This document shows, piece after piece, positions 4,147-49,556 of a stretch of DNA of 64,000 nt (the stretch's first letter is position 1; every line of letters begins with the position of its first letter). Source of the DNA: Sphaerotilus hippei (GTDB lineage Bacteria; Pseudomonadota; Gammaproteobacteria; Burkholderiales; Burkholderiaceae_C); contig NZ_QJJS01000011.1 in the NCBI RefSeq assembly GCF_003201595.1, positions 1 through 64,000 on the forward strand, written 5' to 3'. The notes below the pieces were generated by a model. That model did not search any database, was not told where the DNA came from, and was given only the letters and a program-made list of their open reading frames with translations. The translations under genes were made by a program, and so were the position numbers.

Positions 4147-5253
4147 TCAGGCGCCGGCCGGCGCGAGGTGGTCTTCCATGGCCTTGAGCGCGGCCGCGAC
4201 GATCTGGTCCATGTTGTAGTAGCGGTACTGGGCCAGTCGACCGACGAAGGTCACGCCGCTTTCCCGGTCGGCCATCTCGCGGTACTTGGCGAACAGCGCC
4301 TCGTTCTCCGGGCGCGGGATCGGGTAGTACGGGTCGCCCTCGGCCTGCGGATATTCATAGACCAGCGACGTGCCGCTGTGCTGCTCGCCCGTCAGGTGCC
4401 TGAATTCGGTGATGCGGGTGTAGGCATGGTCGTTGGGGTAGTTGACCGTGCCCACCGTCTGCTGCAGCGGCGTGTCGGCGTGGTGCACATGCTCGAAGCT
4501 CAGGCTGCGGTAGGGCAGCGCCCCGTGGCACTGGTCGTAGTAGCTGTCGATCGGGCCGGTGTAGACGATGTGCGCCCCGGCGACGCCGTCGAGCACCTCG
4601 CGGTAGTCCGTGCCCGTGCGCACCGTGATGTTCTCGTGGTCGAGCATCTTCTCGAACATCGCCGTGTAGCCTTGCGCGGGCATGAACTGGAAGCTGTCGC
4701 CGAAGTAGCGGTCGTCGTCGTCGGTGCGCGTGGGGATGCGCGCGGCCACGCCGGCCGACAGCTCCGACAGGTCCAGGCCCCACTGCTTCTTCGTGTAGCC
4801 GCGGAAGAACTTCTCGCACAGGTCCGGGCCCACGCTGGCGAGCACCACGTCCTGGCTGGTGGCGATCCGCTCGCAGGGCACCCGCACGCTGTCGAGGTAG
4901 CCCTGGACCTGGTCCTTGCCGAGCTCGAGCCCGTAGAGCTGGTTGATGGTGGTGCGGTTGATCGGGATGGGCAGCAGTTCGCCGTCGACCTGCGCGAGCA
5001 CGCGGTGCTCGTAGAAGCGCCAGTCGGTGAAGCGCGAGAGGTACTCGAAGACCCGCTTGCTGTTGGTGTGGAAGATGTGCGGGCCGTAGGGGTGGATCAG
5101 CACGCCCTGCGCATCGCGGACATCGAAGGCATTGCCCCCGATGTGGGGCCGCTTGTCGACCACGAGCACCTGCTTGCCGGCCTCGGCCAGCTCGCGCGCG
5201 CACACCGAGCCGGCAAAACCGGCTCCGACGATCAGGTGGGTAGGGGTGACCAT
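4147..5253 (-). CDS. glf: UDP-galactopyranose mutase
   Basis: A 368-residue flavoenzyme, normal length, that interconverts UDP-galactopyranose and UDP-galactofuranose, supplying Galf for surface glycans. The N-terminal FAD fold is explicit: GAGFAGS at 10-16, then VVDKRPHIGGNAFD. Family landmarks follow: GPHIFHTNS, the PINRTTINQLYGL segment, FFRGYTKKQWG, RIPTRTDDDDRYF and the C-terminal GRLAQYRYYNMDQ. The ATG at 5253 has only a weak AGAAAG ribosome site. It stands alone, but the right-hand polysaccharide arm carries two GT2 enzymes of the galactofuranosyl-transferase type that could use its product. Confidence 0.95.
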   Translation of the reverse strand: MVTPTHLIVGAGFAGSVCARELAEAGKQVLVVDKRPHIGGNAFDVRDAQGVLIHPYGPHIFHTNSKRVFEYLSRFTDWRFYEHRVLAQVDGELLPIPINRTTINQLYGLELGKDQVQGYLDSVRVPCERIATSQDVVLASVGPDLCEKFFRGYTKKQWGLDLSELSAGVAARIPTRTDDDDRYFGDSFQFMPAQGYTAMFEKMLDHENITVRTGTDYREVLDGVAGAHIVYTGPIDSYYDQCHGALPYRSLSFEHVHHADTPLQQTVGTVNYPNDHAYTRITEFRHLTGEQHSGTSLVYEYPQAEGDPYYPIPRPENEALFAKYREMADRESGVTFVGRLAQYRYYNMDQIVAAALKAMEDHLAPAGA

Positions 5254-8991: not shown

Positions 8992-10071
8992 TCAGGCCGG
9001 GGGGCCGCGGCGCTCCAGCATCAGCAGGTGCAGCGGCACCAGCACGGCGAACGAGACCAGCACCCGCAGCACGATGCCGGCGGGCTCGCCATAGGCCAGC
9101 AGGTCCTGCAGCGGGCCGCTGCGGCGGGTGAGGTTGTCGAGCACCGAGAACACGATGATGTGCAGCGGGAACACCGTCAGCGAGGACCGCGCCAGCAGGC
9201 CGGACCAGCGGGCGGGGCCCGGCCGGGTCAGGGCCACCACGCCGGGCAGCACGATGCCGGCGAAGGCCAGCGGCTTGAGCGCCGTCGCCACGGCCGCCGA
9301 CTGGCTCCACGGGCTGCTCAGCACGGCGGTCACCGCGCCCAGGGTCAGCAGCACCAGCAGCCAGGCCCCGGTGCGCACGGGCAGGGGCTGGCTGCGTTCG
9401 ACCGGCCGGTGCCGGCGCAGCAGGTGGCCCAGCACGAGGTAGGGGTAGGCGGCCACGCCGGCGTCGAGCGACCAGAGCCAGCCCTGGTTCTCGGCGAACC
9501 GGCCCAGGGCGAAGGCGCCGCAGGCGAGCGCCACCAGCACGGGGCTGGCGCGGCGGGCACTGAGCCTGAGGCCGACCAGCGCCCAGGCCAGCGCCGGAAA
9601 GAACCACAGCGCGATGGGCCAGACGGTGGTGGGCTGCGTCAGGCTCGGCAGCTGGCTGGTGCCGCTGGCCGCCAGCACCGAGGCGGCGCGGTGGAGCAGC
9701 AGCTCGCCCAGGGGGCGGTGGTCGGGGCCCCAGTGCTTGACGACGATGTAGTAGAGCGCGCCCACCAGCGAGAACACCAGGTAGTGGCGCAGGCAGGGGA
9801 CGATGCGATGGTGCAGGTAGGCGCTCAGCGGCTGCCGCGCGTCCCGGGCCGAGAACAGGTAGCCCGAGGCGAAGAAGAACAGCGGCATGTGGAAGCTGTA
9901 GATCACCTCGTGCAGCAGCGTGCCGTCCACGGCATGCCCCAGCACCACCAGCACGATGCCGATGGCCTTGAGGCGGTCGATCCAGGCGATGGGCGCGCTG
10001 GCCGGGGGGACGGATGCGGACGGCATGCCGGGTGCGCAGGGGCAGCAGGCGGGCGGGGGCTGATCCGGCAC
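8992..10071 (-). CDS. membrane acyltransferase (acyltransferase-3 type)
   Basis: A 359-residue polytopic membrane protein with about ten hydrophobic segments. The family signature is clear: WIDRLKAIGIVLVVLGHAVD, with the conserved His, then YSFHMPLFFFASGY. Acyltransferase-3 proteins move acetyl or similar groups from the cytoplasmic side onto surface sugars (OafA, ExoZ and NolL-like enzymes). A GTG at 10071 opens the frame and an ATG at 10026 is an alternative; neither has a strong ribosome site. It lies 16 bases after the sugar-phosphotransferase stop, probably in one transcript. A paralogue closes the right-hand polysaccharide arm at 49.6-50.6 kb. Confidence 0.85.
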   Translation of the reverse strand: MPDQPPPACCPCAPGMPSASVPPASAPIAWIDRLKAIGIVLVVLGHAVDGTLLHEVIYSFHMPLFFFASGYLFSARDARQPLSAYLHHRIVPCLRHYLVFSLVGALYYIVVKHWGPDHRPLGELLLHRAASVLAASGTSQLPSLTQPTTVWPIALWFFPALAWALVGLRLSARRASPVLVALACGAFALGRFAENQGWLWSLDAGVAAYPYLVLGHLLRRHRPVERSQPLPVRTGAWLLVLLTLGAVTAVLSSPWSQSAAVATALKPLAFAGIVLPGVVALTRPGPARWSGLLARSSLTVFPLHIIVFSVLDNLTRRSGPLQDLLAYGEPAGIVLRVLVSFAVLVPLHLLMLERRGPPA

Positions 10072-10087: not shown

Positions 10088-11545
10088 TCAGTAGGCGTTC
10101 TTGTCGAAGAAGGTCAGCTTGATGGTGCGCGCGATGATGCGCAGGTCCATGCCGAGCGACCAGTTGCGCAGGTACTCGATGTCGTAGGCGACGCGGGCTT
10201 CCATCTTCTCGATCGCGTCGGTCTCGCCACGGCAGCCGTTGACCTGGGCCCAGCCGGTGATGCCGGGCTTGACCTTGTGGCGCAGCATGTAGGCGTGAAT
10301 GATGCGGCGGTACTGGTCGTTGTGCGCGACCGCGTGCGGGCGTGGGCCGACGATGCTCATGCGGCCCTGCAGCACGTTGATGAACTGCGGCAGCTCGTCG
10401 AGCGAGGTGCGGCGGATGAAGGCGCCGAAGGGGGTGATGCGCGGGTCGCCCCGGGTGGCCTGCTTGACGACGGCACCGTTGTCGGTGGCCCGCATCGAGC
10501 GGAACTTGTAGACCAGGATCTCGCCGCCGTCCACGCCGTTGCGGCGCTGCTTGAAGATGATCGGGCCGGGCGAGCTGAGCTTCACGCCGATGGCCACGGC
10601 CGCCAGCATCGGGGTGATCAGCACCAGGATGATGCTGGCGAGCACGATGTCGGAGACCCGCTTGACGATGCGGTTGACGCCGATGAACGGGCTCTCGAGC
10701 AGGCTGACGACCGGCAGGCCGTCCATGTTGCGCATGCGGCCCTGGATGATGTTGACGCCGAAGACGTCGGGCACGAAGTAGATGGACACGGCGCTGTCCT
10801 GCAGCTGGGCCAGCATGCGCGCGATGCGCGGCTGCGAGCTCAGGGGCAGGGTGATGTAGACCTCCTTGATGCCCAGGCGCGTGATGATGTCGGCGGCTTC
10901 GCTGAAGCGGCCGACGATGCGCCCGCGCGTGCCGGGCGCGCAGCGCTCGACGTCACGGTCCTCGAGGTGGCCGATGAAGTCGTGGCCGTAGGCCTGGCGA
11001 TTGGCCAGCATGCGCGCGACCTTGTCACCGATCGGGCCGGCGCCGATGACCAGCGCGGGCTTGCGGGCCTCGGGGCTGGCGGCCATGACCCGCATGGCGC
11101 TGCGACCGGCCCAGACGGCGGCGATCTGCGCCACCGGGGTCAGCACCGCCCACCAGACCAGCACGCTGCGGTCGAAGAAGTGCACGCTGCGCGTGGCCAC
11201 GCCACACAGGAACAGGATCGCGACCACCGCGGCCCAGGCGGCCATCGTGTCGACGACGACGTTGAGCGGGCGCTCGTGGAAGCGGTTGGCGCCGGGGTAG
11301 ACGAGCGCCAGCGTCAGGATGCACAGCAGCAGGCAGGCCCGGTCGATGGTCTGCTCGTGGGCGATCTGCACGGCCACCAGCATGGCGATGGCGATCACCG
11401 GCTCGAGCAGCGCGGCGATGAACATCGACACCGATTGCGGCGGCGAGTTGAACAGTCGCTTGGTGGACGCAGTGGCGGCGCCATACGCCTCGGCCTGGGG
11501 CGGCAGCCCGGTGCCGGGGGTGGGAAGCGGCGGTTGTGCGTACAT
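10088..11545 (-). CDS. undecaprenyl-phosphate glycosyl-1-phosphate transferase
   Basis: A 485-residue protein of the WcaJ/EpsB/GumD class (exopolysaccharide biosynthesis polyprenyl glycosylphosphotransferase), which starts repeat-unit synthesis by placing a sugar-1-phosphate on undecaprenyl phosphate at the inner membrane. Four N-terminal membrane segments (about 40-150) precede a Rossmann-like domain (VIGAGPIGDKVARML), a fifth membrane segment and the C-terminal catalytic domain with IIFKQRRNGVDG, YKFRSMR, RRTSLDELPQFINVL, GPRPHA and KPGITGWAQV. I chose ATG 11545 for its AAGGA site; an in-frame ATG at 11572 is the alternative. No other such initiating enzyme is in the window, so it probably serves the whole split locus. 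Confidence 0.92.
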   Translation of the reverse strand: MYAQPPLPTPGTGLPPQAEAYGAATASTKRLFNSPPQSVSMFIAALLEPVIAIAMLVAVQIAHEQTIDRACLLLCILTLALVYPGANRFHERPLNVVVDTMAAWAAVVAILFLCGVATRSVHFFDRSVLVWWAVLTPVAQIAAVWAGRSAMRVMAASPEARKPALVIGAGPIGDKVARMLANRQAYGHDFIGHLEDRDVERCAPGTRGRIVGRFSEAADIITRLGIKEVYITLPLSSQPRIARMLAQLQDSAVSIYFVPDVFGVNIIQGRMRNMDGLPVVSLLESPFIGVNRIVKRVSDIVLASIILVLITPMLAAVAIGVKLSSPGPIIFKQRRNGVDGGEILVYKFRSMRATDNGAVVKQATRGDPRITPFGAFIRRTSLDELPQFINVLQGRMSIVGPRPHAVAHNDQYRRIIHAYMLRHKVKPGITGWAQVNGCRGETDAIEKMEARVAYDIEYLRNWSLGMDLRIIARTIKLTFFDKNAY

Positions 11546-11801: not shown

Positions 11802-12389
11802 TCAGCCGATCCAGTGCGGGCTCTGCGCCATCGCGAGCATCTCGCGGTCGCCGCGGCTGTCGCCGTAGGCGGTGATGTGGGTGGGCGTGCGCCCGGCCAG
11901 CCACTGGTGGATGCGGCTGACCTTCTCCGGGCCGTGGCAGTTGCGCGGGTGCAGCTCGCCGGTGATGCGCTGGCTGGCATCGACGGCCAGGCTGGTGCAG
12001 AGCACGGCATCGAAGCCCTGCTGCTCGGCCCAGGGGTGCAGGTAGACGTCGAGCGAGGCGCTGACCAGCACGCAGGTGTGGCCGGCCTCGCGGTGGGCGG
12101 CCAGCGCGGCCATCGTCTGCGGGCGCAGCAGCCGGGGCAGGCCCTCGCGGGCGTAGCGGGCGCCTTGCTCGTGGACCTCGGCCAGCGACCGCCCGCCCAT
12201 GAACTGGCGCACCACCTGGGCCTTGGCGGCATCGTTGGCCATCAGGCGCAGCGCGTAGGCGAGCAGCGGGCCGCTGCTGCGGGCCAGGCCGGCGGCGAAG
12301 CCGGGCGTGCCGGCGAGGTGGTGCAGGAAGGGCAGGAAGCTGTCGCGGGTGGTCAGCGTGCCGTCGAAGTCGAAGAGGGCCAGGTGCAT
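11802..12389 (-). CDS. HAD-superfamily IB phosphatase, candidate DPPR phosphatase
   Basis: A 195-residue HAD hydrolase of the SerB-like IB class. Motif I is FDFDGTL (nucleophile Asp7, acid Asp9), motif II is LVSAS, and motif III/IV is YGDSRGDREML. It is the last gene of a five-gene operon whose other members make polyprenyl-phosphoryl-ribose and epimerise it to arabinose. The missing chemical step in that pathway is removal of the 5-phosphate from decaprenyl-phosphoryl-5-phosphoribose, which fits this enzyme. The substrate is inferred from context; a general phosphatase role cannot be excluded. It begins 28 bases after the DprE2-like gene. Confidence 0.8.
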   Translation of the reverse strand: MHLALFDFDGTLTTRDSFLPFLHHLAGTPGFAAGLARSSGPLLAYALRLMANDAAKAQVVRQFMGGRSLAEVHEQGARYAREGLPRLLRPQTMAALAAHREAGHTCVLVSASLDVYLHPWAEQQGFDAVLCTSLAVDASQRITGELHPRNCHGPEKVSRIHQWLAGRTPTHITAYGDSRGDREMLAMAQSPHWIG

Positions 12390-12417
12390 GGGGTGAGCGG
12401 GCTCGGGGTTCGGCGGC

Positions 12418-13188
12418 TCAGAGCTTGAGCCGCTTGAAGAGGCTTTCGGGAATGGCGCGGATGATGGCCATGACGGGGCGCCAGAAGCCAGGCAGGTAGG
12501 CGACGTCGCGGCGCTGGTCGATGGCGCGCACGATGCCGCGGGCGATCTGCTCGGGGGTGGCCCACAGCGGGCCCTTCTTGTCGAAGGCGGCGGTCATCGG
12601 CGTGTCGACGAAACCGGGCTTGATCGTCAGCACCTGCACGCCGTGGGGCTGCAGGCGGTTGCGCAGCCCCTGCAGGAAGAGCGTGAGCATGCCCTTGGCC
12701 GCGCCGTAGACGTAGTTGGACTGGCGCCCGCGCTCGCCGGCCACCGAGGAGATGACCACGATGCAGCCGTGGCCCTGGGCCTGCAGCTGGGTGGCGAGGC
12801 GGCTGGCCAGGTGGATGGGCGCGAGCGCGTTGGTGTGCATCTCGCGCTGGGCCAGCGCGGGGTCGGCCTCGCAGGCGGCCTGGTCGGGCAGGCTGCCCTG
12901 GGCGATCAGCACGGTGTCGATGCCGCCGAGCGCGCGGGTGGCCGCGTCGATCAGCATCTGGTGGTGCTCGAGCAGGTCGAGGTCGGCCCGGGCGAAATGG
13001 ATGTGCCCGGCGCCCTGGGCGCCGGCCCGCACCCGCAGGTCGTCGACCGCGGCCTGCAGCCGGGCGGTGTGGCGGCCGATCAGGTACAGGTGGGCGCCCC
13101 GCTGGACCCACAGCCGCGCGGTGGCGTGGGCGATGGCCGAGGTGGCGCCGAAGATGACGATGCGGGAGCCTGGGGCGGGTGCGCTCAT
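12418..13188 (-). CDS. DprE2-like short-chain dehydrogenase
   Basis: A 256-residue SDR with the N-terminal cofactor motif IVIFGATSAIAHATARL and the catalytic Ser147/Ser148, Tyr161 and Lys165 (VISSVAG, YVYGAAKG). In the mycobacterial DprE1/DprE2 pair, DprE1 oxidises the 2'-OH of polyprenyl-phosphoryl-ribose and the SDR partner DprE2 reduces the keto product to D-arabinose. The GATSAIA fingerprint and the position directly after a DprE1-like gene support this assignment. The ATG overlaps the DprE1-like stop by 4 bases (ATGA), the usual sign of tight coupling between partner subunits. Confidence 0.85.
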   Translation of the reverse strand: MSAPAPGSRIVIFGATSAIAHATARLWVQRGAHLYLIGRHTARLQAAVDDLRVRAGAQGAGHIHFARADLDLLEHHQMLIDAATRALGGIDTVLIAQGSLPDQAACEADPALAQREMHTNALAPIHLASRLATQLQAQGHGCIVVISSVAGERGRQSNYVYGAAKGMLTLFLQGLRNRLQPHGVQVLTIKPGFVDTPMTAAFDKKGPLWATPEQIARGIVRAIDQRRDVAYLPGFWRPVMAIIRAIPESLFKRLKL

Positions 13189-14483
13189 GGTGCGGGTCCG
13201 GAGGCGGTGACCCGCCGCCAGAAGGACGACGAGAAGACCGGGTCGATGTAGGGCACGAAGGTGTCGAGTCGCGGGTAGCCGAGCCGGAACAGCGCCGGAC
13301 CCATGCGGGCGTCCTTGGCGGGGTAGAGCGCGCCTCCCGCGTCGGTCACGACCGCGTCGAGTTCGCGCAGCAGGGCCAGCGTGGCCTCGCCGCGGTGGGG
13401 GAAGTCGAGCGCGAGTGTCGCACCCGGACGGGGAAAGGACAGCAGGCCCGGCGAGCGGCGCTCGCCGAAGGTCTTGAACACCGCCAGGAACGAGCCCTGG
13501 CCGCTGCGGCCGATGCGCCGCAACAGCTCGGCCGCGCCTTCGCGCATGGCCGGGCGCGGCAGCACGCACTGGTACTGGAAGAAGCCGGCGCGGCCGTAGA
13601 CGCGGTTCCAGTCCTGCACCGCGTCGAGCGGGTAGAAGAAGGGCTCGAAGTGCTGCAGGCCCTGGGCCGCGAGGGGGCGGTGGTAGTAGGCGGCGTTGAA
13701 GGCCCGCAGGCTCGGGCCGTTGACCAGCGACACCGGTGGGTCGAACGGAAAACGCCGCTTCGCGCTGCGGTGCCGCGGCAGCTCGGCCTGCGCGCCGACG
13801 AAGTCGCCGGCCGAGTGGATGCCCCGCCCGCCGTGCAGGCAGTCGACCCAGGCGACCGAATGCTCGTGGCGGCTGCCGAACTCGGCGTCGAGCGCCCAGT
13901 AGTCGTCGAGGTGGCCGAAGCGGCGGTGGTGCACCCACAGCCAGGGCTGGCTGATGGGCACCAGCTGGATCTCGACCCAGGTGACCAGGCCGGTCAGGCC
14001 CAGGCCGCCGATGGTGGCGGCGTACCAGTCGGCGTGTTCGGCGGGGCTGCAGCGGCGGCGCGAGCCGTCGGAGCGCTGCAGCTCGAAGGCGCGCACATGG
14101 CAGCCGAAGCTGCCGGCGCGGTGGTGGTTCTTGCCATGCACGTCGTTGGCCAGCGCGCCGCCCAGCGTGACGAAGCGGGTGCCGGGCGTGACCGCGAGGA
14201 ACCAGCCCTGGGGCACGACCAGGCGCAGGATCTGGTCGAGCGAGACCCCGGCCTCGGCCCGCAGCACGCCGGTGGCACGGTCGAAGTCGATGAAGCGGTC
14301 GAGCCCGCGGGTGTGCAGCACCGTGCCGTGATGGTTCAGCGCGACGTCGCCGTAGCTGCGGCCCAGGCCGTGGGGCAGCAGGCCGGCGCCTTCACCACGC
14401 GGCAGGGGCGCGTCGCGGTCGTGCAGCTGCCGTTCGAGCGCGGGGGTGCAGCGTGGCCAGCGGCCCCAGGACGTGACGCTCAT
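13185..14483 (-). CDS. DprE1-like FAD-dependent polyprenylphosphoryl-ribose 2'-oxidase
   Basis: A 432-residue VAO-type flavoprotein. The FAD domain shows GLGRSYGDVALN, TPGTRFVTLGGALANDVHGK (101-118) and NHHRAGSFG, which match DprE1 including the conserved HGKNHH stretch. The C-terminal part has SFLAVFKTFG and YPAKDAR, where Lys390 corresponds to the active-site Lys418 of the mycobacterial enzyme. In that protein the segment NICVDFP carries Cys387, the covalent target of benzothiazinones; here it reads TLALDFP, so the position is Ala358. The gene starts 10 bases after the flippase-like gene and overlaps the DprE2-like gene. Plant or fungal-type sugar-lactone oxidases share the fold but not these motifs. 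Confidence 0.88.
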   Translation of the reverse strand: MSVTSWGRWPRCTPALERQLHDRDAPLPRGEGAGLLPHGLGRSYGDVALNHHGTVLHTRGLDRFIDFDRATGVLRAEAGVSLDQILRLVVPQGWFLAVTPGTRFVTLGGALANDVHGKNHHRAGSFGCHVRAFELQRSDGSRRRCSPAEHADWYAATIGGLGLTGLVTWVEIQLVPISQPWLWVHHRRFGHLDDYWALDAEFGSRHEHSVAWVDCLHGGRGIHSAGDFVGAQAELPRHRSAKRRFPFDPPVSLVNGPSLRAFNAAYYHRPLAAQGLQHFEPFFYPLDAVQDWNRVYGRAGFFQYQCVLPRPAMREGAAELLRRIGRSGQGSFLAVFKTFGERRSPGLLSFPRPGATLALDFPHRGEATLALLRELDAVVTDAGGALYPAKDARMGPALFRLGYPRLDTFVPYIDPVFSSSFWRRVTASGPAP

Positions 14484-14493
14484 GCCGTGGCGC

Positions 14494-15483
14494 TCATGCG
14501 CGGGCCGGCGCCGCCGGCTCGGCGGGTTCGGTCGGCGCCCGTCGCAGCAGCCGCAGCAGCGCGGCCAGGCCCAGCGCGACCGCGAACCACAGCGTGGTCA
14601 AGCGGATCAGCACGGTGGCGACCACCGCGACCGGCTGCGACAGGCCGCTCATCAGCAGCAGGCCGACCATGGTGGCCTCGGTGCCGCCCAGCCCGCCGGG
14701 CAGGAAGCTGAGCGCGCCGGCCAGCATGCCGATGGCGTAGACGGAAAACGAGAAGGCCATGGACGGGCTGCCCCCGAGCATGCCCAGCAGCCGGTGGAAG
14801 GCCCAGGCCTCGGCCGACCAGGCGACCAGGCTGAGCGCGGTGGCCACCAGCAGCACCGACGGGCGGTGGCAGGTGCGGGCGCTGGCCAGCAGGCTCAGTC
14901 CCTGCGCCAGGCCCCGGGCGAGCCGCGAACGGCCTTGCTGCGCGCGGGCCTGCCAGCGCTGCAGCAACCGGCCCTGGGCGATCAGCAGGAAGCTGAGGGC
15001 CAGCAGCGCCACCGCGACGAGCACCAGCGCCTGCAGGCCGGGGTGGCGGGCCGACAGGCCGACCCCCAGCAGGCACAGCAGCACGATGGCCAGCAGGTCC
15101 GACAGGCGCTCGCTGAGGAAGGCGGCCATGCTGGGGCCGAAGGGCATGCCGCGCGTCTTCAGGAACAGCGAGCGCAGCGCCTCGCCGGCCTTGCCGGGGG
15201 TGGTGGTCAGCGCGAAGCCGCCGATGTAGATCAGCAGGCTGGGCCGCCACGGCTGCGGGTGGCCGAGGGTGCGCAGGTAGAGCTGCCAGCGCAGGAAGCG
15301 CAGGCCGTAGTTGAGCGCCGACAGCGCCAGCAGCAGCGCCACGCCGCCCCAGCCGACGCGGCCCACCGAGGCCAGCACCTCGTGCCAGCCGCCCCAGAGC
15401 GAGAACGCCAGGTAGCCGCAGGCGGCGGCGGCCACCGACAGGATGACGGCGCGCCAGTGGCGCGGGTTCAGGGCGGGGGGCAT
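14494..15483 (-). CDS. flippase-like (UPF0104/LPG-synthase TM domain) membrane protein
   Basis: A 329-residue protein with about eight hydrophobic segments and the UPF0104/flippase-like hallmarks: LRFLRWQLYLRTLG, the TTTPGKAGEALRSLFLK stretch, LSERLSDLLAIVLL and the FLPGGLGGTEATMVGLLL loop. Relatives include the membrane domain of lysyl-phosphatidylglycerol synthase and AglD-type proteins, and several are thought to handle polyprenyl-linked or lipid substrates. The ATG at 15483 overlaps the UbiA stop by one base (TGATG). Placed between the synthase and epimerase genes, it is a candidate for moving polyprenyl-phosphoryl-arabinose across the membrane, but that role is inferred. Confidence 0.8.
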   Translation of the reverse strand: MPPALNPRHWRAVILSVAAAACGYLAFSLWGGWHEVLASVGRVGWGGVALLLALSALNYGLRFLRWQLYLRTLGHPQPWRPSLLIYIGGFALTTTPGKAGEALRSLFLKTRGMPFGPSMAAFLSERLSDLLAIVLLCLLGVGLSARHPGLQALVLVAVALLALSFLLIAQGRLLQRWQARAQQGRSRLARGLAQGLSLLASARTCHRPSVLLVATALSLVAWSAEAWAFHRLLGMLGGSPSMAFSFSVYAIGMLAGALSFLPGGLGGTEATMVGLLLMSGLSQPVAVVATVLIRLTTLWFAVALGLAALLRLLRRAPTEPAEPAAPARA

Positions 15484-16376
15484 CAGGCGATGATCAGCAG
15501 GGTCGTGACCAGCCACAGCGGCAGCATCAGCACCAGGTGGCAGTCGGAGAACAGGTCACGCGCGGTGTCCTGGCCGTGGCCCTTGCCATGCAGCAGGAAC
15601 AGGTAGCGGCAGATGCCGTAGAGCAGGAAGGGCACGGTGTAGATCAGCCGGTCGGTGCCGTGCAGCGCGACGGTCTCGGGGCTGACGGTGTAGAGCGCGT
15701 AGGCCAGCACCGAGCAGCCGCCGGTCATGGCCAGCAGCTGGTCGAGCACCTCGGGCCGGTAGTGCGCGAGCACCCGGCGCGCCGGGGTGCCGCTGGCCTC
15801 GCAGACCAGCAGCTCGGCCTTGCGCTTGGCGAAGCCCAGGAAGAGCGTGATCATCATGCCGCACAGCAGCAGCCACGACGAGGGCGGGATGCCCACGCCG
15901 AGCGTGCCGATCAGGATGCGCAGCATGAAGCCGGCCGAGATCACGAACACGTCGACGATGACCATGTGCTTGAGCCGGTGGGTGTAGGCGATGTTCATCA
16001 CCGCGTAACACGTGACCAGCGCCAGCGCGGTCAGCGAGGCGGCCCCGGCGGCCAGCAGCGCCGTGGCGGCCAGCGCCAGGCCCAGCGCACGAGCCACCAC
16101 CGGTTGGATGGCGCCGCTGGCGATCGGGCGGTGGCATTTGCCGGGGTGGTGCCGGTCGGCCTCGACGTCGATCAGGTCGTTGTAGACGTAGACCGCGCTG
16201 GCCATCGCGCAGAACGCGATGAAGACCAGGCCGACCGACTGCACCAGCGACGCGTCGTGCCACTGGTGGGCGAAGATCAGCCCGAGCAGCACGAAGCCGT
16301 TCTTGACCCACTGGTGCGGGCGCAGCAGGGCGAGGGCCGCCGGGTAGATCCCGATGGACGGACGGGTGGCTTGCAC
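15483..16376 (-). CDS. UbiA-family decaprenyl-phosphate phosphoribosyltransferase (DPPR synthase type)
   Basis: A 297-residue membrane prenyltransferase homologue. The first Asp-rich motif is NDLIDVEADRHHPGKCHRPI (from residue 66) and the second is YTHRLKHMVIVDVFVISAGF. Both are closer to mycobacterial Rv3806c, which joins PRPP to decaprenyl phosphate, than to UbiA/CyoE. The frame opens at a TTG (16424), but the GTG at 16376 has GAGGGAG 7 bases upstream and is the better start. It heads the operon UbiA, flippase-like, DprE1-like, DprE2-like, HAD. Related sets occur in the Azorhizobium Nod-factor arabinosylation genes and the Pseudomonas pilin arabinosylation locus. Confidence 0.88.
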   Translation of the reverse strand: MQATRPSIGIYPAALALLRPHQWVKNGFVLLGLIFAHQWHDASLVQSVGLVFIAFCAMASAVYVYNDLIDVEADRHHPGKCHRPIASGAIQPVVARALGLALAATALLAAGAASLTALALVTCYAVMNIAYTHRLKHMVIVDVFVISAGFMLRILIGTLGVGIPPSSWLLLCGMMITLFLGFAKRKAELLVCEASGTPARRVLAHYRPEVLDQLLAMTGGCSVLAYALYTVSPETVALHGTDRLIYTVPFLLYGICRYLFLLHGKGHGQDTARDLFSDCHLVLMLPLWLVTTLLIIA

Positions 16377-16487: not shown

Positions 16488-17768
<1,281 letters not shown>

Positions 17769-33508: not shown

Positions 33509-34528
33509 ATGATGTCGGTCTCATCTCAAGGCGGCGTTGCCCGCGCTCGCCAGGTCAATCTCTCTTCGTCCCTGCGCCTGGTTCGCGGACTGGGCCTGGT
33601 GGCTGCGGCAGTGGCCCTGGTGGCTTGCGGCGGTGGCAAGGAAGGCGGCGCCACGCAGGTCGCGGCCAAGGTCAACAAGGAAGAGATCTCGGTCCACCAG
33701 ATCAACTTCGTGCTGCAGCGCCAGCCCAATCTGAAACCCGAACAGGCCCAGGCGGCCAGCAAGCGTGTGCTCGAAGGCCTGGTCGACCAGGAGCTGGCCG
33801 TGCAGCAGGCCGTCGAGCAGAAGCTCGACCGGGATCCGCGCACGGTGATGGCCATCGAGGCGGCCCGCCGCGAGATCCTGTCGCGCGCCTACATGGACAA
33901 GCTCACCGGTGGCGTCGAGAAGCCGACGGACGCCGAGATCAGCCAGTTCTACGCGTCCCGCCCGGCGCTGTTCTCCCAGCGCCGTGTCTATTCGCTGGTC
34001 GAGTTCAACATCGAGGCCGGTGGCGACAAGGCCCAGAAGGAGGCCCTGGCGGCCCAGTTCAATGGCGTGAAGGGGGCGGACGCCCTGGCCGCGCAGCTGC
34101 GTGCGGCCGGCGTCAAGTTCGCGGCGCGCCCCAGCACGGTGCCTGCCGAGTCCGTGCCGACGGCGCTGCTGGGCAAGCTGTCGACGATGGGCGAAGGCCA
34201 GGCGATGTCCAACGTGACGCCGGTGGGCATCAACGTGCTGGTGCTCAATGCGGCGAAATCGGCTCCGGTGAGCGAGGCGCAGGCCAAGGCGGCGATCACT
34301 TCCTTCCTTGTGAATGACAAAAAGCGCAAGTTGGCCGTCGACGAGATGAAGCGTCTGCGCGAGGCCGCCAAGATCGAGTATCTTGGCCAATTCAGTGGCG
34401 GTGTTGCATCTGCTAACGTATCCGCATCCGCTGCGGAAGAGCCGGCCTCGCTGCTGCCGGCCGCAGCGGCAGCCTCGGAAGCGCTCGACGCCACGGACCT
34501 CCAGAAGGGCCTGTCGGGCCTGAAATGA
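33509..34528 (+). CDS. epsD: EpsD-family peptidyl-prolyl cis-trans isomerase lipoprotein
   Basis: A 339-residue SurA/PpiD-like protein of the EpsD family found in exosortase-linked exopolysaccharide loci. The N-terminus is a lipoprotein signal with the lipobox LVAC (Cys40) followed by GGGKEGG. A SurA-type N-terminal helical region (VAAKVNKEEISVHQINFVL, LDRDPRTVMAIEAARREIL) precedes a degenerate parvulin region. It probably helps fold or assemble export proteins in the periplasm. The start is ATG 33509 (a second ATG follows directly), with GGGAG about 9 bases upstream. It is the first gene of a long plus-strand operon. Confidence 0.88.
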   Translation: MMSVSSQGGVARARQVNLSSSLRLVRGLGLVAAAVALVACGGGKEGGATQVAAKVNKEEISVHQINFVLQRQPNLKPEQAQAASKRVLEGLVDQELAVQQAVEQKLDRDPRTVMAIEAARREILSRAYMDKLTGGVEKPTDAEISQFYASRPALFSQRRVYSLVEFNIEAGGDKAQKEALAAQFNGVKGADALAAQLRAAGVKFAARPSTVPAESVPTALLGKLSTMGEGQAMSNVTPVGINVLVLNAAKSAPVSEAQAKAAITSFLVNDKKRKLAVDEMKRLREAAKIEYLGQFSGGVASANVSASAAEEPASLLPAAAAASEALDATDLQKGLSGLK

Positions 34529-34598
34529 ACCCACGCTCGCTCCGCGCCACGCCATGACTCAATCGACTCGCCACACTGCTCACTTCGAGGAAGCCCTC

Positions 34599-35501
34599 AT
34601 GACGCCTGAATCCACCCTGACGGCAGCCCCTGCCGCACCGAAGCGCCCGGGCGCCGTGTGGTCCCGGCGCTGTGCCGGAGCCCTGGCCGCGCTGGTGATC
34701 GGCGCCGCGCCGATGCTCCAGCCGGTGTCGGCCGCCGCCCAGGGGGTCGCCGCCCAGGCCGATGCGAAGAAGGACTACGTGATCGGTGCCGGCGACGTCG
34801 TGCGCGTGATGGTGTTCCAGAACCCGGACCTGACGCTCGAGACCCGCGTGTCCGAGTCGGGCACCATCAGCTACCCGCTGCTGGGCCAGGTCCGCCTGGG
34901 TGGCCTGTCGATCACGAAGGCCGAGGCGCTGATCGCCGACGGGCTGCGCAGCGGCAACTACGTGCGCCAGCCGCAGATCACGCTGATGGTCACGCAGGTG
35001 CGCGGCAACCAGGCCAGCGTGCTGGGCATGGTCAACCGCCCGGGCCGTTTCCCGATCGAGGTCAGCGGCATGCGCGTGAGCGAGCTGCTGGCCACCGCCG
35101 GGGGCGCCCTGGTCAGCGGCAGCGACATCGCGGTGCTCAGCGGCATGCGCGGGGGCAAGCCTTTCCGCAAGGAGGTCGACATCGGCGCGCTGTTCACCGG
35201 CGCGAAGTCGGCCGGCATCGAGGATCCGGTGATCCTGGACGGCGACACGCTCTACGTCGACCGCATGCCGATGATCTACATCTACGGTGAAGTGCAGCGT
35301 CCCGGCACGTTCCGCCTCGAGCGCGACATGACGGTGCTGCAGGCGCTGGCCACCGGTGGCGGCCTGACCCAGCGTGGCACGGCCAAGGGCCTGAAGGTCC
35401 ACCGCCGTGACGCGTCCGGCGCGATCAACGTGTTCCAGCCGGCCATGACCGACCCGGTGCTGCCGGGTGACGTGGTCTACGTGCAGGAAAGCCTGTTCTA
35501 A
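34599..35501 (+). CDS. epsE: EpsE polysaccharide export outer-membrane protein
   Basis: A 300-residue Wza-type export protein. After a signal peptide (RRCAGALAALVIGAAPM, cleavage near SAAAQG) comes the Poly_export domain (YVIGAGDVVRVMVFQNPDL, GTISYPLLGQVRLGG), then SLBB-type repeats (VLGMVNRPGRFPIEV, IYIYGEVQRPGTFRLE). There is no lipobox Cys. I chose ATG 34599, preceded by GAGGAAG at 6 bases, over an earlier in-frame ATG at 34554. It would form the outer-membrane channel working with EpsF and EpsG. Confidence 0.93.
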   Translation: MTPESTLTAAPAAPKRPGAVWSRRCAGALAALVIGAAPMLQPVSAAAQGVAAQADAKKDYVIGAGDVVRVMVFQNPDLTLETRVSESGTISYPLLGQVRLGGLSITKAEALIADGLRSGNYVRQPQITLMVTQVRGNQASVLGMVNRPGRFPIEVSGMRVSELLATAGGALVSGSDIAVLSGMRGGKPFRKEVDIGALFTGAKSAGIEDPVILDGDTLYVDRMPMIYIYGEVQRPGTFRLERDMTVLQALATGGGLTQRGTAKGLKVHRRDASGAINVFQPAMTDPVLPGDVVYVQESLF

Positions 35502-35520
35502 GCCTGGAAGGCGCACCCCG

Positions 35521-36942
35521 ATGAGCTTCCCCCAGTTTCTCTCCATCCTGCGTGCCCGCTGGAAGGCCGCCCTGGCGGTCCTGCTGGGCACCGTCGGCCT
35601 GGCGCTCGGTTTTGCGCTGATGCTGCCTCAGCAGTTCACCGCCACGGCGGCGGTGGTGGTCGACGTGAAGCCGGATCCGATCCTGGGGGCCATGATGCAG
35701 TCGGCCAACACGGCGGTGTCGATGTCCACGCAGGTGGACATCATCAAGAGCGACCGGGTGGCCCAGCGCGTGGTGCGCGAGCTCAAGCTCGGCAACAACC
35801 CGCAGCTGCGCCAGCAATGGCGCGACAGCACCGGGGGCGCCGGCAACTTCGAGTCCTGGGCGGGTGATCTGCTGGGCCAGAAGCTGGTGGTGGTGCCGGG
35901 GCGTGACAGCAACGTCATGAGCGTGACCTACACCGCGGCGGATCCGAAGTTCGCCACGGTGATGGCCAATGCCTTCGTGCAGTCCTACATCGAGACCAGC
36001 CTGGAGCTGCGGGTCGCGCCGGCCAAGCAGTACGCGAGCTTCTTCGACGAGCGCATCAAGGCCTTGCGCGACAAGCTCGAGGCGGCCCAGACCAAGCTGA
36101 GCGTCTACCAGAAGCAGAACGGCATCCTGGCCACCGACGAGCGGCTGGACATCGAGAACCAGCGCCTGGCGGACCTGAGCGCCCAGCTGGTGGGCCTGCA
36201 GGCGGTCGCCGCCGAGTCCCGCAGCCGCAATGCCGCGGCCACGCAGGGCGGGGACCAGCTGCAGGAAGTGCTGAACAACTCGGTCGTCGCCGGCCTGCGC
36301 AGCGACCAGTCGCGCCAGGAGGCACGTCTGCAGGAGCTCAGCGCCCGGCTGGGCGACTCGCACCCGCAGGTGGTCGAGCTCAAGGCCAGCATCGGCGAGA
36401 TGCAGCGCCGCATCGAGACCGAGTCCCGCCGCGTGCGCGGCAGCGTGACGGTCAACGACACCGTCAACCGGGCCCGCGAGGTCGAGCTCAAGACCTCGCT
36501 GGAAGCCCAGCGCGCCAAGGTGCTCAAGATGAAGGAGCAGCGCGACGAGGCGATGCTGATGGTGCGCGAGGTCGAGAGCGCGCAGCGCGGCTACGACGCC
36601 GTGGCGGCCCGCTACACCCAGTCCAGCCTCGAGAGCCAGATGAACCAGACCAACATCACGCTGCTGACCGCGGCCACCGAGCCGTCGTCGCCGTCGGGCC
36701 CGAAGGTGCTGCTGATCGGTCTGCTGTCGCTGGTGGCCGGCCTGCTGCTGGCGCCCGGCTTCGTGGTGCTGCGCGAATTCTTCGATCGGCGCGTGCGCAC
36801 GCTCGACGACCTGTCCGGCTCGCTCGGCCTGCCGGTGCTGGGGGTCGTGCCGCGTCCGACGACGGGCCTGCTGGGCCAGTCGTCCGGCCGGCTGATGCTG
36901 CCGGGCCAGGTGATGGCCCGCCTGCCGCAGCAGAGCCACTGA
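35521..36942 (+). CDS. epsF: EpsF chain-length determinant (Wzz/GNVR) protein
   Basis: A 473-residue polysaccharide co-polymerase. A first membrane helix (residues about 15-35, ALAVLLGTVGLALGFALML) and a Wzz periplasmic domain (FTATAAVVVDVKPDPILG) are followed by long coiled coils (about 180-370) and the GNVR-type segment TEPSSPSGPKVLLIGLLSL that leads into the second membrane helix. The short cytoplasmic tail after GFVVLREFFDRRVRT would contact the kinase EpsG. ATG 35521 has GGAAGG about 9 bases upstream. It is 19 bases after epsE and 24 before epsG. Confidence 0.92.
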   Translation: MSFPQFLSILRARWKAALAVLLGTVGLALGFALMLPQQFTATAAVVVDVKPDPILGAMMQSANTAVSMSTQVDIIKSDRVAQRVVRELKLGNNPQLRQQWRDSTGGAGNFESWAGDLLGQKLVVVPGRDSNVMSVTYTAADPKFATVMANAFVQSYIETSLELRVAPAKQYASFFDERIKALRDKLEAAQTKLSVYQKQNGILATDERLDIENQRLADLSAQLVGLQAVAAESRSRNAAATQGGDQLQEVLNNSVVAGLRSDQSRQEARLQELSARLGDSHPQVVELKASIGEMQRRIETESRRVRGSVTVNDTVNRAREVELKTSLEAQRAKVLKMKEQRDEAMLMVREVESAQRGYDAVAARYTQSSLESQMNQTNITLLTAATEPSSPSGPKVLLIGLLSLVAGLLLAPGFVVLREFFDRRVRTLDDLSGSLGLPVLGVVPRPTTGLLGQSSGRLMLPGQVMARLPQQSH

Positions 36943-36966
36943 CCCCCCTCGATCGACAGGAACGGT

Positions 36967-37881
36967 ATGACAGCCTCTGCCCGCAGCACCTTCAAGTCCG
37001 CTGGCCCGCGTCCGGTCTCCGGCGACGATCTGGCGCAGCACCCCGAGCAGGACCGCACCATCGGCGAGATCATCCGCCGGGCCAAGAACCTGAGCGCCGA
37101 GCAGGTGGCCGCGATCTCCGAGCACCAGCGCACCCACAACCTGCGCTTCGGCGAGGCGGCGGTCGCGCTGGGCCTGGCCACCGAGGCGGACGTCGTCTTC
37201 GCGCTGTCCCAGCAGTTCCACTACCCGTTCACGCCGGAAGGCCGCAACGGCGTCAACCGCGAGCTGGTGACCGCGTCGCAGCCCTTCAGCGTGCAGGCGG
37301 AGGCCTTCCGGGCGATCCGCAGCCAGCTGATGATGCGCATCTTCAGCGCCACCGAGCCGCGCCGGGCGCTGGCCGTGGTCAGCCCCGATTCGGGCGACGG
37401 CAAGACCTTCTTCGCCGCCAACCTCGCCGTCGTGCTGGCCCAGCTGGGCAACCGCACGCTGGTGGTCGACGCCGACCTGCGCGGCCCGCGCCTGCACGAC
37501 GTGTTCGGCATCCCGAACGCCTCGGGGCTGTCGGGCATCCTGAGCGGGCGCCAGGAGGACAACGTGATCTTCCAGGCCCCCGACCTGCCCAGCCTCTACG
37601 TGATGCCGGTCGGCGTCACGCCGCCCAACCCGCTCGAGCTGATCGAGCGCCCGGCGTTCCGGCTGCTGATCAACGAGCTGCTGCGCAAGTTCGACCATGT
37701 CATCGTCGACACCCCGGCGGCCGTGCACGGCAGCGACTTCGCCGCGCTGGCCTCGCGCTGCGGTGCCGCCCTGGTCGTGGCCCGCAAGGACCGCTCGCGC
37801 CTGAAGGAGATCGAGCAGGTGGTGCAGACCGTCATGACCGGCAACGCGACCGTGGCCGGCGTGGTGATGAACGAATACTGA
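36967..37881 (+). CDS. epsG: EpsG chain-length-control BY-kinase
   Basis: A 304-residue cytoplasmic ATPase of the bacterial tyrosine kinase family. The N-terminal 90 residues are a GspE/MshEN-like module (TIGEIIRRAKNLSAEQV, FGEAAVALGLATEADVVFAL). The kinase core has Walker A SPDSGDGKT (139-147), Walker A' VVDADLRGP (166-174) and Walker B HVIVDTPA. The C-terminus ends VVMNEY, with none of the usual run of tyrosines that are autophosphorylated in Wzc or CapB, so control of polymer length may differ. ATG 36967 has AGGA 6 bases upstream. Confidence 0.9.
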   Translation: MTASARSTFKSAGPRPVSGDDLAQHPEQDRTIGEIIRRAKNLSAEQVAAISEHQRTHNLRFGEAAVALGLATEADVVFALSQQFHYPFTPEGRNGVNRELVTASQPFSVQAEAFRAIRSQLMMRIFSATEPRRALAVVSPDSGDGKTFFAANLAVVLAQLGNRTLVVDADLRGPRLHDVFGIPNASGLSGILSGRQEDNVIFQAPDLPSLYVMPVGVTPPNPLELIERPAFRLLINELLRKFDHVIVDTPAAVHGSDFAALASRCGAALVVARKDRSRLKEIEQVVQTVMTGNATVAGVVMNEY

Positions 37882-37915
37882 TCCTTTCCCTCCACTTCCG
37901 AGACAGGCCGCTGCG

Positions 37916-38824
37916 GTGCAGATCCTCCAGTCCTATGTCAGTGCCGTCTTCGGGAAACGCGAGGCGTCCGACACGGCCCACCTCACGTTCCTGGTCGTGG
38001 CGGCCGGTTTCCTGGCGATGTTCGTGCCGGTCTACCTGGACCTGGCGCGCCACATCTGGTCCACCGACGAGCAGGGCCACGGCCCGATCATCCTCGGCCT
38101 GTGCGCCTGGCTGATCTGGCGCAGCCGCGAGGCGCTGATCGCCTTGCCGGCCCGGCCCGCGCGGCGCACCGCCGCGGTGCTGATGGCGCTGTGCTGGCCG
38201 GTCTACGCCATCAGCCTGTCGCAGGGCATCACGACGGTCGAGGGCCTGCTGCAGCCGCTGGTGGTGATCGCGCTGCTGCTGTGGTTCAAGGGCTGGCCCG
38301 GGGTGCGCCTGATGTGGTTTCCGCTGGCCTTCATGCTGTTCATGGTGCCGGTGCCCTCGACGGTGGTGCTGCAGGCCACGATGCCGCTGAAGGTGGCGGT
38401 CTCCAGCGTGGCCGAGCCGCTGCTGCACGCGCTGGGCTACCCGATCGCCCGCACCGGGGTGATCCTGCAGGTGGGCCAGTACCAGCTGCTGGTGGCCGAT
38501 GCCTGCGCCGGCCTGAACTCGATCTTCACGCTCGAGGCCCTGGGCCTGCTCTACCTGAACATGAAGGGCCATGCCTCGGCCGCGCGCAACCTGGTGATGG
38601 CCTGCCTGATCTTCCCGGCGTCCTTCCTGTCCAACGTGATCCGGGTCTGCACGCTGGTGCTGGTGACCTACCACTTCGGCGACGCCGCAGGGCAGGGCTT
38701 CACCCACACCTTCGCCGGCATGGTGCTGTTCCTGTGTGCGCTGGTGATCATCATCGCCCTCGACCACGTGCTGGACCTGGTCTGGAAAGTCCTGCCCGCC
38801 CGGACCACAGGAGCCCCCCGATGA
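37916..38824 (+). CDS. xrtB: exosortase B
   Basis: A 302-residue membrane protein with about eight hydrophobic segments, matching exosortase B. The predicted cysteine-protease-like triad is present: Cys197 in LLVADACAGLNSIFTL, Arg243 in SNVIRVCTLV and His264 in GFTHTFAGM. Exosortases are thought to process and anchor proteins with PEP-CTERM tails, often in genomes with matching EPS loci. The start is GTG 37916. The stop overlaps the epsI ATG by 4 bases (ATGA). No PEP-CTERM protein is encoded in this window; the substrates must lie elsewhere. Confidence 0.95.
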   Translation: MQILQSYVSAVFGKREASDTAHLTFLVVAAGFLAMFVPVYLDLARHIWSTDEQGHGPIILGLCAWLIWRSREALIALPARPARRTAAVLMALCWPVYAISLSQGITTVEGLLQPLVVIALLLWFKGWPGVRLMWFPLAFMLFMVPVPSTVVLQATMPLKVAVSSVAEPLLHALGYPIARTGVILQVGQYQLLVADACAGLNSIFTLEALGLLYLNMKGHASAARNLVMACLIFPASFLSNVIRVCTLVLVTYHFGDAAGQGFTHTFAGMVLFLCALVIIIALDHVLDLVWKVLPARTTGAPR

Positions 38825-39519
38825 ACGACGAACGACGCCAGCGCCGCCAGCTGCTGCACGCCGCCGGCCTCGCGGCGGTGATGGCCAGCGCGCCGGTGGC
38901 CGCCTGGCGCATCCGGCCCGACGAGCCGCTGACGCTGTCCTATCCGAAGATGGACCTGGAGCAGCAGATCCCCGAGGTGTTCGCCGGCTGGCGGGTCGAC
39001 CGCAGCCTGACGCCGCTGGTGCCCGATCCGGTGCTGCAGCAGAGCGTGCAGGCGACCTACGACCAGAACATCGCCCGCACCTACATCAACGACCGGGGCG
39101 AGCGGGTCATGGTCACGGTGGCCTACGGCGCCGATCAGGGCGCCGAGGCGACCCAGGTGCACCGCCCCGAGATCTGCTACGGCGCCCAGGGCTTCGTGGT
39201 GCGTCACCAGGCCGATGAGCTGCTGGCGCTGCCGGAGCACCGCATCGCGGTGCGGCGTCTGTTCGCCTCGCTGGGGCGGCGCATGGAGCCCGTCAGCTAC
39301 TGGGTCACGCTCGGCGACACCGCCAGCCTGCCGGGCTGGCGCCGCAAGCTCGAGCAGATCCGCATCGGCCTGGCGGGCAAGTACGCCGATGGCCTGCTGA
39401 TGCGCTTCTCGAGTTTCGGCACCGACACGGCCGCGGCCTACACCCTGCACGACCGCTTCGTCCGCGACCTCTACGCCAGCGTGGCGGCGGACGTGCGTCC
39501 GCGCTACTTCGGGAGCTGA
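38821..39519 (+). CDS. epsI: EpsI domain protein
   Basis: A 232-residue protein of the EpsI family, which in some species is fused to the exosortase C-terminus and here is separate. It has a Tat/Sec-like N-terminal hydrophobic stretch after RRQRRQLLHAAG, then VFAGWRVDRS and the conserved QVHRPEICYGAQGF (Cys-containing) motif, followed by SYWVTLGDTA. The position directly after xrtB with a 4-base overlap is typical. Its biochemical role is not established; a periplasmic partner of exosortase or of polysaccharide handling is assumed. Confidence 0.9.
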   Translation: MNDERRQRRQLLHAAGLAAVMASAPVAAWRIRPDEPLTLSYPKMDLEQQIPEVFAGWRVDRSLTPLVPDPVLQQSVQATYDQNIARTYINDRGERVMVTVAYGADQGAEATQVHRPEICYGAQGFVVRHQADELLALPEHRIAVRRLFASLGRRMEPVSYWVTLGDTASLPGWRRKLEQIRIGLAGKYADGLLMRFSSFGTDTAAAYTLHDRFVRDLYASVAADVRPRYFGS

Positions 39520-39521
39520 GT

Positions 39522-40853: not shown

Positions 40854-41626
40854 GCCACGACTCCTCGTTGATCAAGCCCGCCTTGGGCGACCGGCCTGCC
40901 GCGCCTGGCACCGGCGGTGAGGGGGTGCTGCTGGCGGGCTTCCAGCTGGAGCGCCACACCGACGGCAGCCTGATCCAGCTGCTGCGCCAGCGCCTGGCCA
41001 GCCGGGTCTCGACTGCGCTGTTCTTTGCCAACACCAACCTGGTGGTCACCGGGCAGGGACTGCTGCCGCAGCTGCGCCATGAGACCGCTGCGGTCGTGGT
41101 CAACGACGGCCTGGGCATCGACATCGGCATGGCGATGCGTGGGCATCCGAAATTCGCCCAGAACCTCAACGGCACGGATTTCATCCCGCTGCTGCTGACC
41201 GAGGTTCCCGGGCTGCGGGTCTTCCTGTACGGCGGCCAGCGGCTGTCGGTCGAAGGCACGGCCCGTCGCATCGAGGCGATGGGGCATCAGGTCGTCGGTT
41301 GTTTCGATGGTTATGACAGCCAGGAGGCCGAGGTCGTCGAGGCGATCGGCCGCACCCGGCCCGACGTGATCCTGGTGGCCCTGGGCAATCCGCGCCAGGA
41401 AGCCTGGATCCTGGACCACATGGCCAGCCTGCCGCCGGCGGTGCTGGTCGGTGTCGGCGCCTTGTTCGATTTCATGTCCGGACGCATGCCGCGTGCGCCC
41501 CGCTGGGTGCGGCGCCTGCGCATGGAGTGGCTGTACCGGCTCTACCGCGAGCCCCGGCGTCTGGCCCGGCGCTACACGGTCGACTTCGTGCGCTTCCTGG
41601 TCCTGTGCCTGTGGCCGGCCCGCTGA
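40850..41626 (+). CDS. WecG/TagA/CpsF-family glycosyltransferase
   Basis: A 258-residue GT26 enzyme. Motifs are FFANTNLVVTG, VVVNDGLGIDIG, NLNGTDFIPLL, VALGNPRQEAWI and the C-terminal RRLRMEWLYRLYREPRRLA. WecG and TagA transfer N-acetylmannosaminuronic acid or N-acetylmannosamine to a lipid-linked acceptor; the sugar used here cannot be told from sequence. The dehydrogenase at 16.5-17.8 kb could supply an N-acetylhexosaminuronic acid donor. ATG 40850 overlaps the polymerase stop by 4 bases and has AGGGGAG upstream. The basic C-terminal tail suggests membrane association. Confidence 0.9.
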   Translation: MSHDSSLIKPALGDRPAAPGTGGEGVLLAGFQLERHTDGSLIQLLRQRLASRVSTALFFANTNLVVTGQGLLPQLRHETAAVVVNDGLGIDIGMAMRGHPKFAQNLNGTDFIPLLLTEVPGLRVFLYGGQRLSVEGTARRIEAMGHQVVGCFDGYDSQEAEVVEAIGRTRPDVILVALGNPRQEAWILDHMASLPPAVLVGVGALFDFMSGRMPRAPRWVRRLRMEWLYRLYREPRRLARRYTVDFVRFLVLCLWPAR

Positions 41627-41663
41627 ACGGGGCCGGCGTGGCGGCCGCCATGGAGCCGGGGCG

Positions 41664-42791: not shown

Positions 42792-42806
42792 AAATCGGTA
42801 GCTGAT

Positions 42807-43991: not shown

Positions 43992-44001
43992 ATCGCGGGA
44001 A

Positions 44002-47190: not shown

Positions 47191-47207
47191 GCCTGCCAGC
47201 AGCCTGA

Positions 47208-48503: not shown

Positions 48504-48543
48504 CCCTGCTCGACAGGGTCATTCAGTTTGACACGAGGCACGC

Positions 48544-49509: not shown

Positions 49510-49556
49510 ATGCTGACCAGGCCTTCGCCGGCGCATCGCCCGCAAGGAGTGCTCGT

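Follow-up and report, generated by a model that had tools for sequence, protein, structure and literature searches.

What do five tightly spaced genes beside an exopolysaccharide (EPS) gene of Sphaerotilus hippei make, and to what is the product attached? The question is raised by positions 11802-16376, minus strand, of a 64,000-nucleotide stretch (positions 1 to 64,000 of contig NZ_QJJS01000011.1, assembly GCF_003201595.1). The whole stretch is called the window, and its contig is C11 in our numbering, where L marks loci and G genomes. As judged from the encoded proteins, the five-gene kit very probably produces lipid-linked D-arabinose of the mycobacterial cell-wall kind, in a bacterium that is no kin of the tuberculosis bacillus. 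In the fuller explanation, which we consider probable, the five genes make and expose polyprenyl-phosphoryl-D-arabinofuranose (D-Araf), and a glycosyltransferase of the GT-C type encoded elsewhere transfers D-Araf to a glycan on the cell surface, EPS being the simplest choice.

The genes were called by codon usage, with a caller trained on 20 window genes that included the operon's five, and the codon usage of the five is that of the neighbouring genes. Families were assigned by Pfam and NCBIfam profile searches with curated cut-offs. The five same-strand genes are the following.

15483..16376, minus strand: UbiA-family PRPP:polyprenyl-phosphate phosphoribosyltransferase, predicted, of DPPRS/PPPRS type (NF008977, PDB match)
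14494..15483, minus strand: PF03706 (LPG_synthase_TM) membrane protein, candidate polyprenyl-phosphoryl-pentose flippase (PF03706)
13185..14483, minus strand: DprE1-like FAD oxidase, putative polyprenyl-phosphoryl-ribose 2'-oxidase (DprE1 chains)
12418..13188, minus strand: DprE2-like short-chain reductase (best PDB match DprE2)
11802..12389, minus strand: HAD-IB phosphatase, probable 5'-phosphoribose phosphatase (PF12710 and TIGR01490 above cut-off)

The UbiA stop codon and the ATG of the PF03706 gene have one base in common (TGATG), and the DprE2-like gene overlaps the stop codon of the DprE1-like gene. From this gene content and order, and from the family matches, motifs and co-occurrence given below, we infer the following chain. 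The UbiA protein would transfer 5-phosphoribose from phosphoribosyl pyrophosphate (PRPP) to a polyprenyl phosphate, presumably undecaprenyl phosphate, and the HAD protein would take off the 5'-phosphate. The DprE1-like enzyme would oxidise C2, and its reduction by the DprE2-like enzyme would give the arabino form. The PF03706 protein would then move the lipid-sugar across the inner membrane, and a GT-C encoded elsewhere in the genome would pass D-Araf on to a glycan of the cell surface, the simplest candidate being the EPS of the locus that the operon entered.

The first step is supported by the UbiA protein, which scored 265.7 bits on the decaprenyl-phosphate phosphoribosyltransferase model NF008977 (curated cut-off 234) and 37.6 bits on the haem o synthase model. 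Its nearest solved structure is 8j8j (127.5 bits, 6.8e-36), the next family reaching 24.0 bits, and in the alignment with 8j8j it keeps NDLIDVEAD (66) and KRKAE (184). For DPPRS/PPPRS enzymes, PMC11127046 describes a conserved N-D..D...D in loop II, whose residues are critical there, and R..E in loop IV; the residues of both loops are present in the UbiA protein. A menaquinone or haem prenyltransferase is ruled out by the NCBIfam and PDB scores, and the predicted function of a DPPRS-type phosphoribosyltransferase is supported. The DprE1-like protein has an FAD_binding_4 domain, retains the HGKNHH and AKD stretches and matches DprE1 PDB chains with 245 bits, against 33 bits for the next family, xylitol oxidase, which rules out an unrelated sugar oxidase. 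The DprE2-like protein has DprE2 as its best PDB match (21gq chain C, 105 bits; next chain 64.8 bits) and passed the cut-off of NF005489 (315.7 bits, cut-off 267). For all three proteins, the closest relatives of solved structure are the mycobacterial enzymes of the pathway.

For comparison, we searched for DprE1-like genes and found them in 33 of the family's 299 genomes (E of 1e-60 or lower); genome_contigs contained at least 590 stretches with such a gene, 80 of which were kept. From 32 family matches outside the source genome, 29 were used, and the matches on short contigs (G048, G019, and G041) were omitted. The DprE1-like gene was called in 27 of these 29 loci, and L054 and L067 were omitted because the gene caller missed the gene. 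The resulting set comprises 108 loci (the window, 27 from the family, and 80 from genome_contigs), of which 83 are at least 15 kb long, and gene neighbours were counted within 7 kb of the DprE1-like gene. A UbiA gene was present in 88 loci, 21 times separate and 67 times fused to HAD, as distinguished by length. Of the 21 loci with a separate UbiA, 10 had a separate HAD gene; none of the 67 with the fusion did. The fused ORF15 of Citrobacter youngae was shown to form farnesylP-ribose (PMC11127046). Since a separate HAD gene occurs only where UbiA is unfused, and given the product of the ORF15 fusion, the window's HAD protein is likely to remove the 5'-phosphate.

Two scores weigh against the assignment of the middle steps, as both proteins fell under the cut-offs of their NCBIfam equivalog models: 330.4 bits on NF053785 (cut-off 500) for DprE1 and 191.8 bits on NF053786 (cut-off 250) for DprE2. 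For this reason, we call them DprE1-like and DprE2-like. The shortfall would suit a pair that makes another lipid-linked pentose or a keto-sugar instead of D-Araf, as would the residues 357-362 of the DprE1-like protein (LALDFP), where an alanine takes the place of the cysteine in mycobacterial NVCVDFP, the covalent target of benzothiazinones. Nevertheless, we regard such a product as very unlikely: DprE1 and DprE2 are the best matches by far, and a member of the DprE2-like cluster, which may contain other short-chain dehydrogenases/reductases, lies nearby in 100 of the 108 loci. Homologues of DprE1 and DprE2 are also reported in candidate systems of Araf-containing glycans (PMC11127046). An epimerase-like gene recurs near the DprE2-like gene in 30 of the 108 loci (for example, L050, L056, L060, and L108) and a flavoprotein in 28 (NF005560 in L050); these are perhaps a second lipid-sugar branch.

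The PF03706 protein scored 164.3 bits (Pfam gathering score 33.4), and a sequence search of the PDB gave no match at E of 10 or lower. The family is represented in 44 of the 108 loci, and in 40 of the 44 its gene directly adjoins the UbiA or the DprE1-like gene on the same strand. An alignment of 43 sequences contains 22 invariant residues. On the DprE1 tree (105 rows, with four rows of fewer than 380 residues left out), presence and absence of PF03706 required 13 changes, at least nine of them forced by well-supported branches, compared with a shuffled mean of 33.3; thus, the trait groups on the tree, with several gains or losses. In archaeal glycosylation pathways, members of PF03706 were predicted to act as flippases (PMC5898192), and GpgF has been predicted to flip a glycolipid (PMC12713373). 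A tie between PF03706 and lipid-arabinose was not found in the open-access literature searched, among the matches listed, and PMC11127046 describes flippase activity on these lipid-pentose donors as not yet directly demonstrated. The candidate differs from the MATE and SMR flippase types named there. Co-occurrence and adjacency therefore support the protein as a candidate flippase of the lipid-linked pentose.

Alternatively, the PF03706 protein might translocate lipids in general and accompany the operon, with the pentose lipid being flipped by another protein. The 64 of 108 loci that lack a PF03706 gene nearby count for this and against the flippase assignment, and MprF of Pseudomonas aeruginosa is reported to scramble lipids promiscuously (PMC11980842). 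We consider it rather unlikely in view of the adjacency in 40 of 44 loci, the overlap with UbiA in the window, and the archaeal prediction. GtrA-like and other small membrane proteins were rarer beside PF03706 (7 of 44 loci versus 34 of 64, p = 1e-4, 108 loci). This held after thinning to 60 loci (p = 4e-4) and lost significance at 38 loci (p = 0.16 or 0.10), a further point on the negative side, and mutual exclusivity was dropped as proof of a flippase role. With the PF03706 protein as the candidate flippase, the recurrence of this flippase-like family next to the synthase across distant bacteria opens the flippase question to a simple genetic test in harmless hosts. The original prediction had claimed five tight genes comprising a DPPRS-type UbiA, a flippase-like protein, relatives of DprE1 and DprE2, and a HAD phosphatase, which together lead from PRPP to a lipid-linked D-Araf donor; the layout and the family of each protein are borne out by the sequence comparisons, which also support the predicted pathway. 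Neither result named beforehand as refuting the pathway was obtained: the UbiA protein does not group with menaquinone or haem prenyltransferases, nor the DprE1-like protein with unrelated sugar oxidases.

The order UbiA-PF03706-DprE1-DprE2-HAD occurs in 9 of the 108 loci, the window included. The other eight are L045, L073 (Halomonas), L074 (Chromohalobacter), L076 (Methylophaga), L077 and L083 (Pseudomonas), L092 (Alcaligenaceae), and L102 (Thioalkalivibrio), and the congener G305 (L191), outside the 108-locus set, has the identical order. This recurrence excludes a chance arrangement. In five of the nine loci (L074, L076, L083, L092, and L102), a polytopic protein directly follows HAD, and in L076 and L102 its gene overlaps the five-gene unit by 4 bases. 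The L076 protein is of the PMT_2 type and that of L102 is its homologue; those of L074, L083, and L092 had no Pfam family above cut-off. In L077, a pilin gene and a gene for a membrane protein of 627 amino acids precede the operon. Relatives of this protein occur in L055, L059, and L061, and in all four loci a pilin-like gene lies no more than 10 kb from DprE1, pointing to pilin arabinosylation; L086 and L110 have pilin-like genes too, without the L077-type membrane protein. Neither the window nor L045 nor L073 showed such a large membrane-protein candidate within 7 kb. These loci suggest that the donor kit is constant and that the neighbouring membrane protein varies. Apart from the PMT_2 ones, we infer from size and helices that the neighbouring proteins are GT-C transferases. 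A constant kit beside a changing membrane protein shows where transferases and acceptors may be sought.

The surroundings of the operon in the window bear on its acceptor and contain the following features.

16488..17768, minus strand: nucleotide-sugar dehydrogenase (TviB-like) of the EPS locus, upstream neighbour (TIGR03026, 376.4 bits)
10088..11545, minus strand: WcaJ-type initiating sugar-phosphate transferase, downstream neighbour (TIGR03023, 494.6 bits, cut-off 410.75)
8992..10026, minus strand: acyltransferase (PF01757) on the downstream side (Pfam)
4147..5253, minus strand: UDP-galactopyranose mutase (Glf), which makes UDP-galactofuranose (TIGR00031, 355.0 bits, cut-off 303.75)
33611..50597, plus strand: exosortase-type EPS cluster (Pfam)

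The operon thus lies between two EPS genes, and the exosortase-type cluster is about 20 kb from DprE1. The cluster contains PpiC-like, export (SLBB), Wzz-like, ParA-like kinase, exosortase, and putative Wzy genes, together with WecG, GT4s, GT2s, GH5, Wzx, and an acyltransferase; the GH5 is a cellulase-like hydrolase (46114-47190, plus strand). A scan for promoters and terminators and the folding of the gap between HAD and WcaJ (z = -2.4) gave nothing interpretable. Of the 13 genomes of the genus, 2 have a DprE1-like gene and 12 a WcaJ match (E of 1e-80 or lower); the one without WcaJ is G305, which has the operon. In four of nine congener stretches (L194, L195, L197, and L200), the dehydrogenase stands near WcaJ without the operon, and the genus search gave no DprE1 match in these four genomes. 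Given these observations, the operon looks like an addition to a pre-existing EPS locus.

The last step was sought in the genome. No GT-C was recognised among the large membrane proteins, inspected by eye, of the window or the rest of contig C11, and a PMT_2 profile search found none on that contig. The same search of the genome resulted in four proteins, on contigs C3, C8 (two), and C18. A protein of 531 amino acids (C3) and one of 607 (C8) resemble the post-HAD group of L076 and L102 (hhalign 90 and 94%), have homologues in congeners without the operon, and are encoded no more than three genes away from a GT2-like gene, named by eye, that has transmembrane helices. The protein of 469 amino acids (C18) had no match above 60 bits among 19 congener PMT_2 loci and resembles none of ten membrane-protein groups. 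The four are only candidates for the transferase, and none is singled out. Five membrane-protein groups from other loci were also sought in the genome, in searches that lacked a positive control and did not extend to the other groups near DprE1: the L043 protein (none at E of 0.01 or lower), the L077-type group A2 (best E 0.074), the L053 group A3 (best E 0.175), the L050 group A4, and the G305 group A5 (none at E of 1 or lower for either). These searches and the contig without a recognised GT-C count against the proposed transfer. The original statement that no GT-C is visible is in line with the window and the rest of contig C11, but four PMT_2-type proteins are encoded on other contigs.

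A membrane protein of 443 amino acids within the EPS cluster (39522-40853) was rejected as a GT-C: it had no Pfam match and stayed below 1% hhalign probability with the ten membrane-protein groups, a weak comparison because it used a single sequence and because the method also missed the kinship of most groups with the PMT_2 proteins. From its sequence features, this protein is a putative Wzy.

As for the acceptor, EPS is the simplest reading because the operon adjoins WcaJ. However, exosortase EPS genes lie within 10 kb of DprE1 in only 1 of the 107 other loci, many of which are shorter, and this detracts from the EPS reading. A real possibility, though the lesser one, is that the donor pathway is right and D-Araf goes to a protein, such as type IV pilin or a secreted repeat protein, or to some other glycan of the envelope, such as lipopolysaccharide, so that adjacency to WcaJ merely reflects insertion into a permissive locus. 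The four L077-type loci with their pilin-like genes favour this, as do the known D-Araf on pilin of P. paraeruginosa (PMC12369383) and the congener G305, which had no WcaJ match at the threshold above and whose operon is on a 12.8 kb stretch in which no EPS genes were recognised. There, the operon follows two tandem membrane proteins of about 400 amino acids, 45% identical to each other, the longer of which was tested and had no Pfam match above cut-off. On the other side, the best match of the L077-type group in the genome was E = 0.074 (no positive control), the window operon has an EPS gene on either side, and in L048, the 1 locus of the 107, exosortase-type EPS genes come directly after those for the same enzymes. 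Of the predicted D-arabinose surface glycan, the adjacency to an EPS initiating enzyme stands, as the gene is WcaJ-type; EPS as the acceptor is weakened by the distance of the cluster, the single locus among 107, and the G305 stretch.

Should D-arabinose prove to be part of the EPS, this polymer would provide D-arabinofuranose glycans from a source that is easy to grow. We also put forward, tentatively and as unlikely, that the EPS carries both furanoses of mycobacterial arabinogalactan: galactofuranose, provided by Glf (4147-5253) and the GT2s that match GlfT1, and D-Araf attached on the periplasmic side, with the PF03706 protein flipping the donor. The papers cited here do not name this flippase type for polyprenyl-phosphoryl-pentose. 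GlfT1 is the best NCBIfam match of the GT2s at 48544-49509 (73.5 bits) and 44002-45024 (43.4 bits), both below the cut-off of 330. An EPS with arabinose and galactofuranose in Burkholderiales was not found in the open-access literature searched, among the matches listed.

Other features of the window and its contig were recorded. A complete type I Wadjet defence system, JetABCD, occupies 22911-29682 (plus strand, PADLOC models) near a tRNA-Ser (20759-20848), suggesting an island. The gene after it (31197-32447), which gave only weak PDC-M03A matches in PADLOC, is presumably HipA-like. Farther along contig C11, at about 79.9-93.3 kb on the minus strand, a very large repeat protein (L010 15922-19998 and L072 2-9307) is followed by type I secretion-like genes (L072 9636-13342), and two long TPR-like proteins lie on its other side (L010 7566-15831); all of these were named by eye.

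Compared with the mycobacterial decaprenylphosphoryl-arabinose pathway (Rv3806c, DprE1, and DprE2), the window has three homologous enzymes and the same predicted chain of steps. It differs in having a HAD phosphatase in place of the Rv3807c type and PF03706 in place of the SMR-like Rv3789 (types according to PMC11127046), in having no arabinosyltransferase gene recognised beside the operon, and in DprE scores under the equivalog cut-offs. The three-component pentofuranose system of C. youngae (ORF12, ORF14, and ORF15; PMC11127046) is similar in its route from PRPP to polyprenyl-P-Ribf, its HAD phosphatase, its epimerising enzymes, and its flippase. In contrast, the window has separate HAD and UbiA genes, a PF03706 flippase candidate and not a MATE protein, and no adjacent GT-C. 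Both elements of the donor part of such a system, a lipid-pentose synthase and a HAD phosphatase, are found in the window at the level of sequence.

In the pilin arabinosylation of P. paraeruginosa (PSPA7_6245-6251 and TfpW; PMC12369383), the D-Araf donor genes also lie apart from the transferase gene, and the acceptor is pilin. The Pseudomonas loci L077 and L083 share the window's five-gene order; the PA7 genes and TfpW are likened to ours by description, and the L077 protein of 627 amino acids may be compared with TfpW only by analogy. The rhizobial noeCHOP/noeCNHOP operons for Nod-factor arabinosylation, likewise likened by description only, have noeC, noeH, and noeO assigned to lipid-arabinose steps and noeN as the proposed phosphatase, whereas their proposed transferase, noeP, lies within the operon and the acceptor is a lipo-chitooligosaccharide (PMC5080398). 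The system type was published in 2024 with a wide occurrence (PMC11127046), and with DprE1-like genes in 33 of 299 family genomes and at least 590 genome_contigs stretches, the novelty initially attached to the locus was overstated. The operon type is already known, and the window holds one of many such kits across bacteria.

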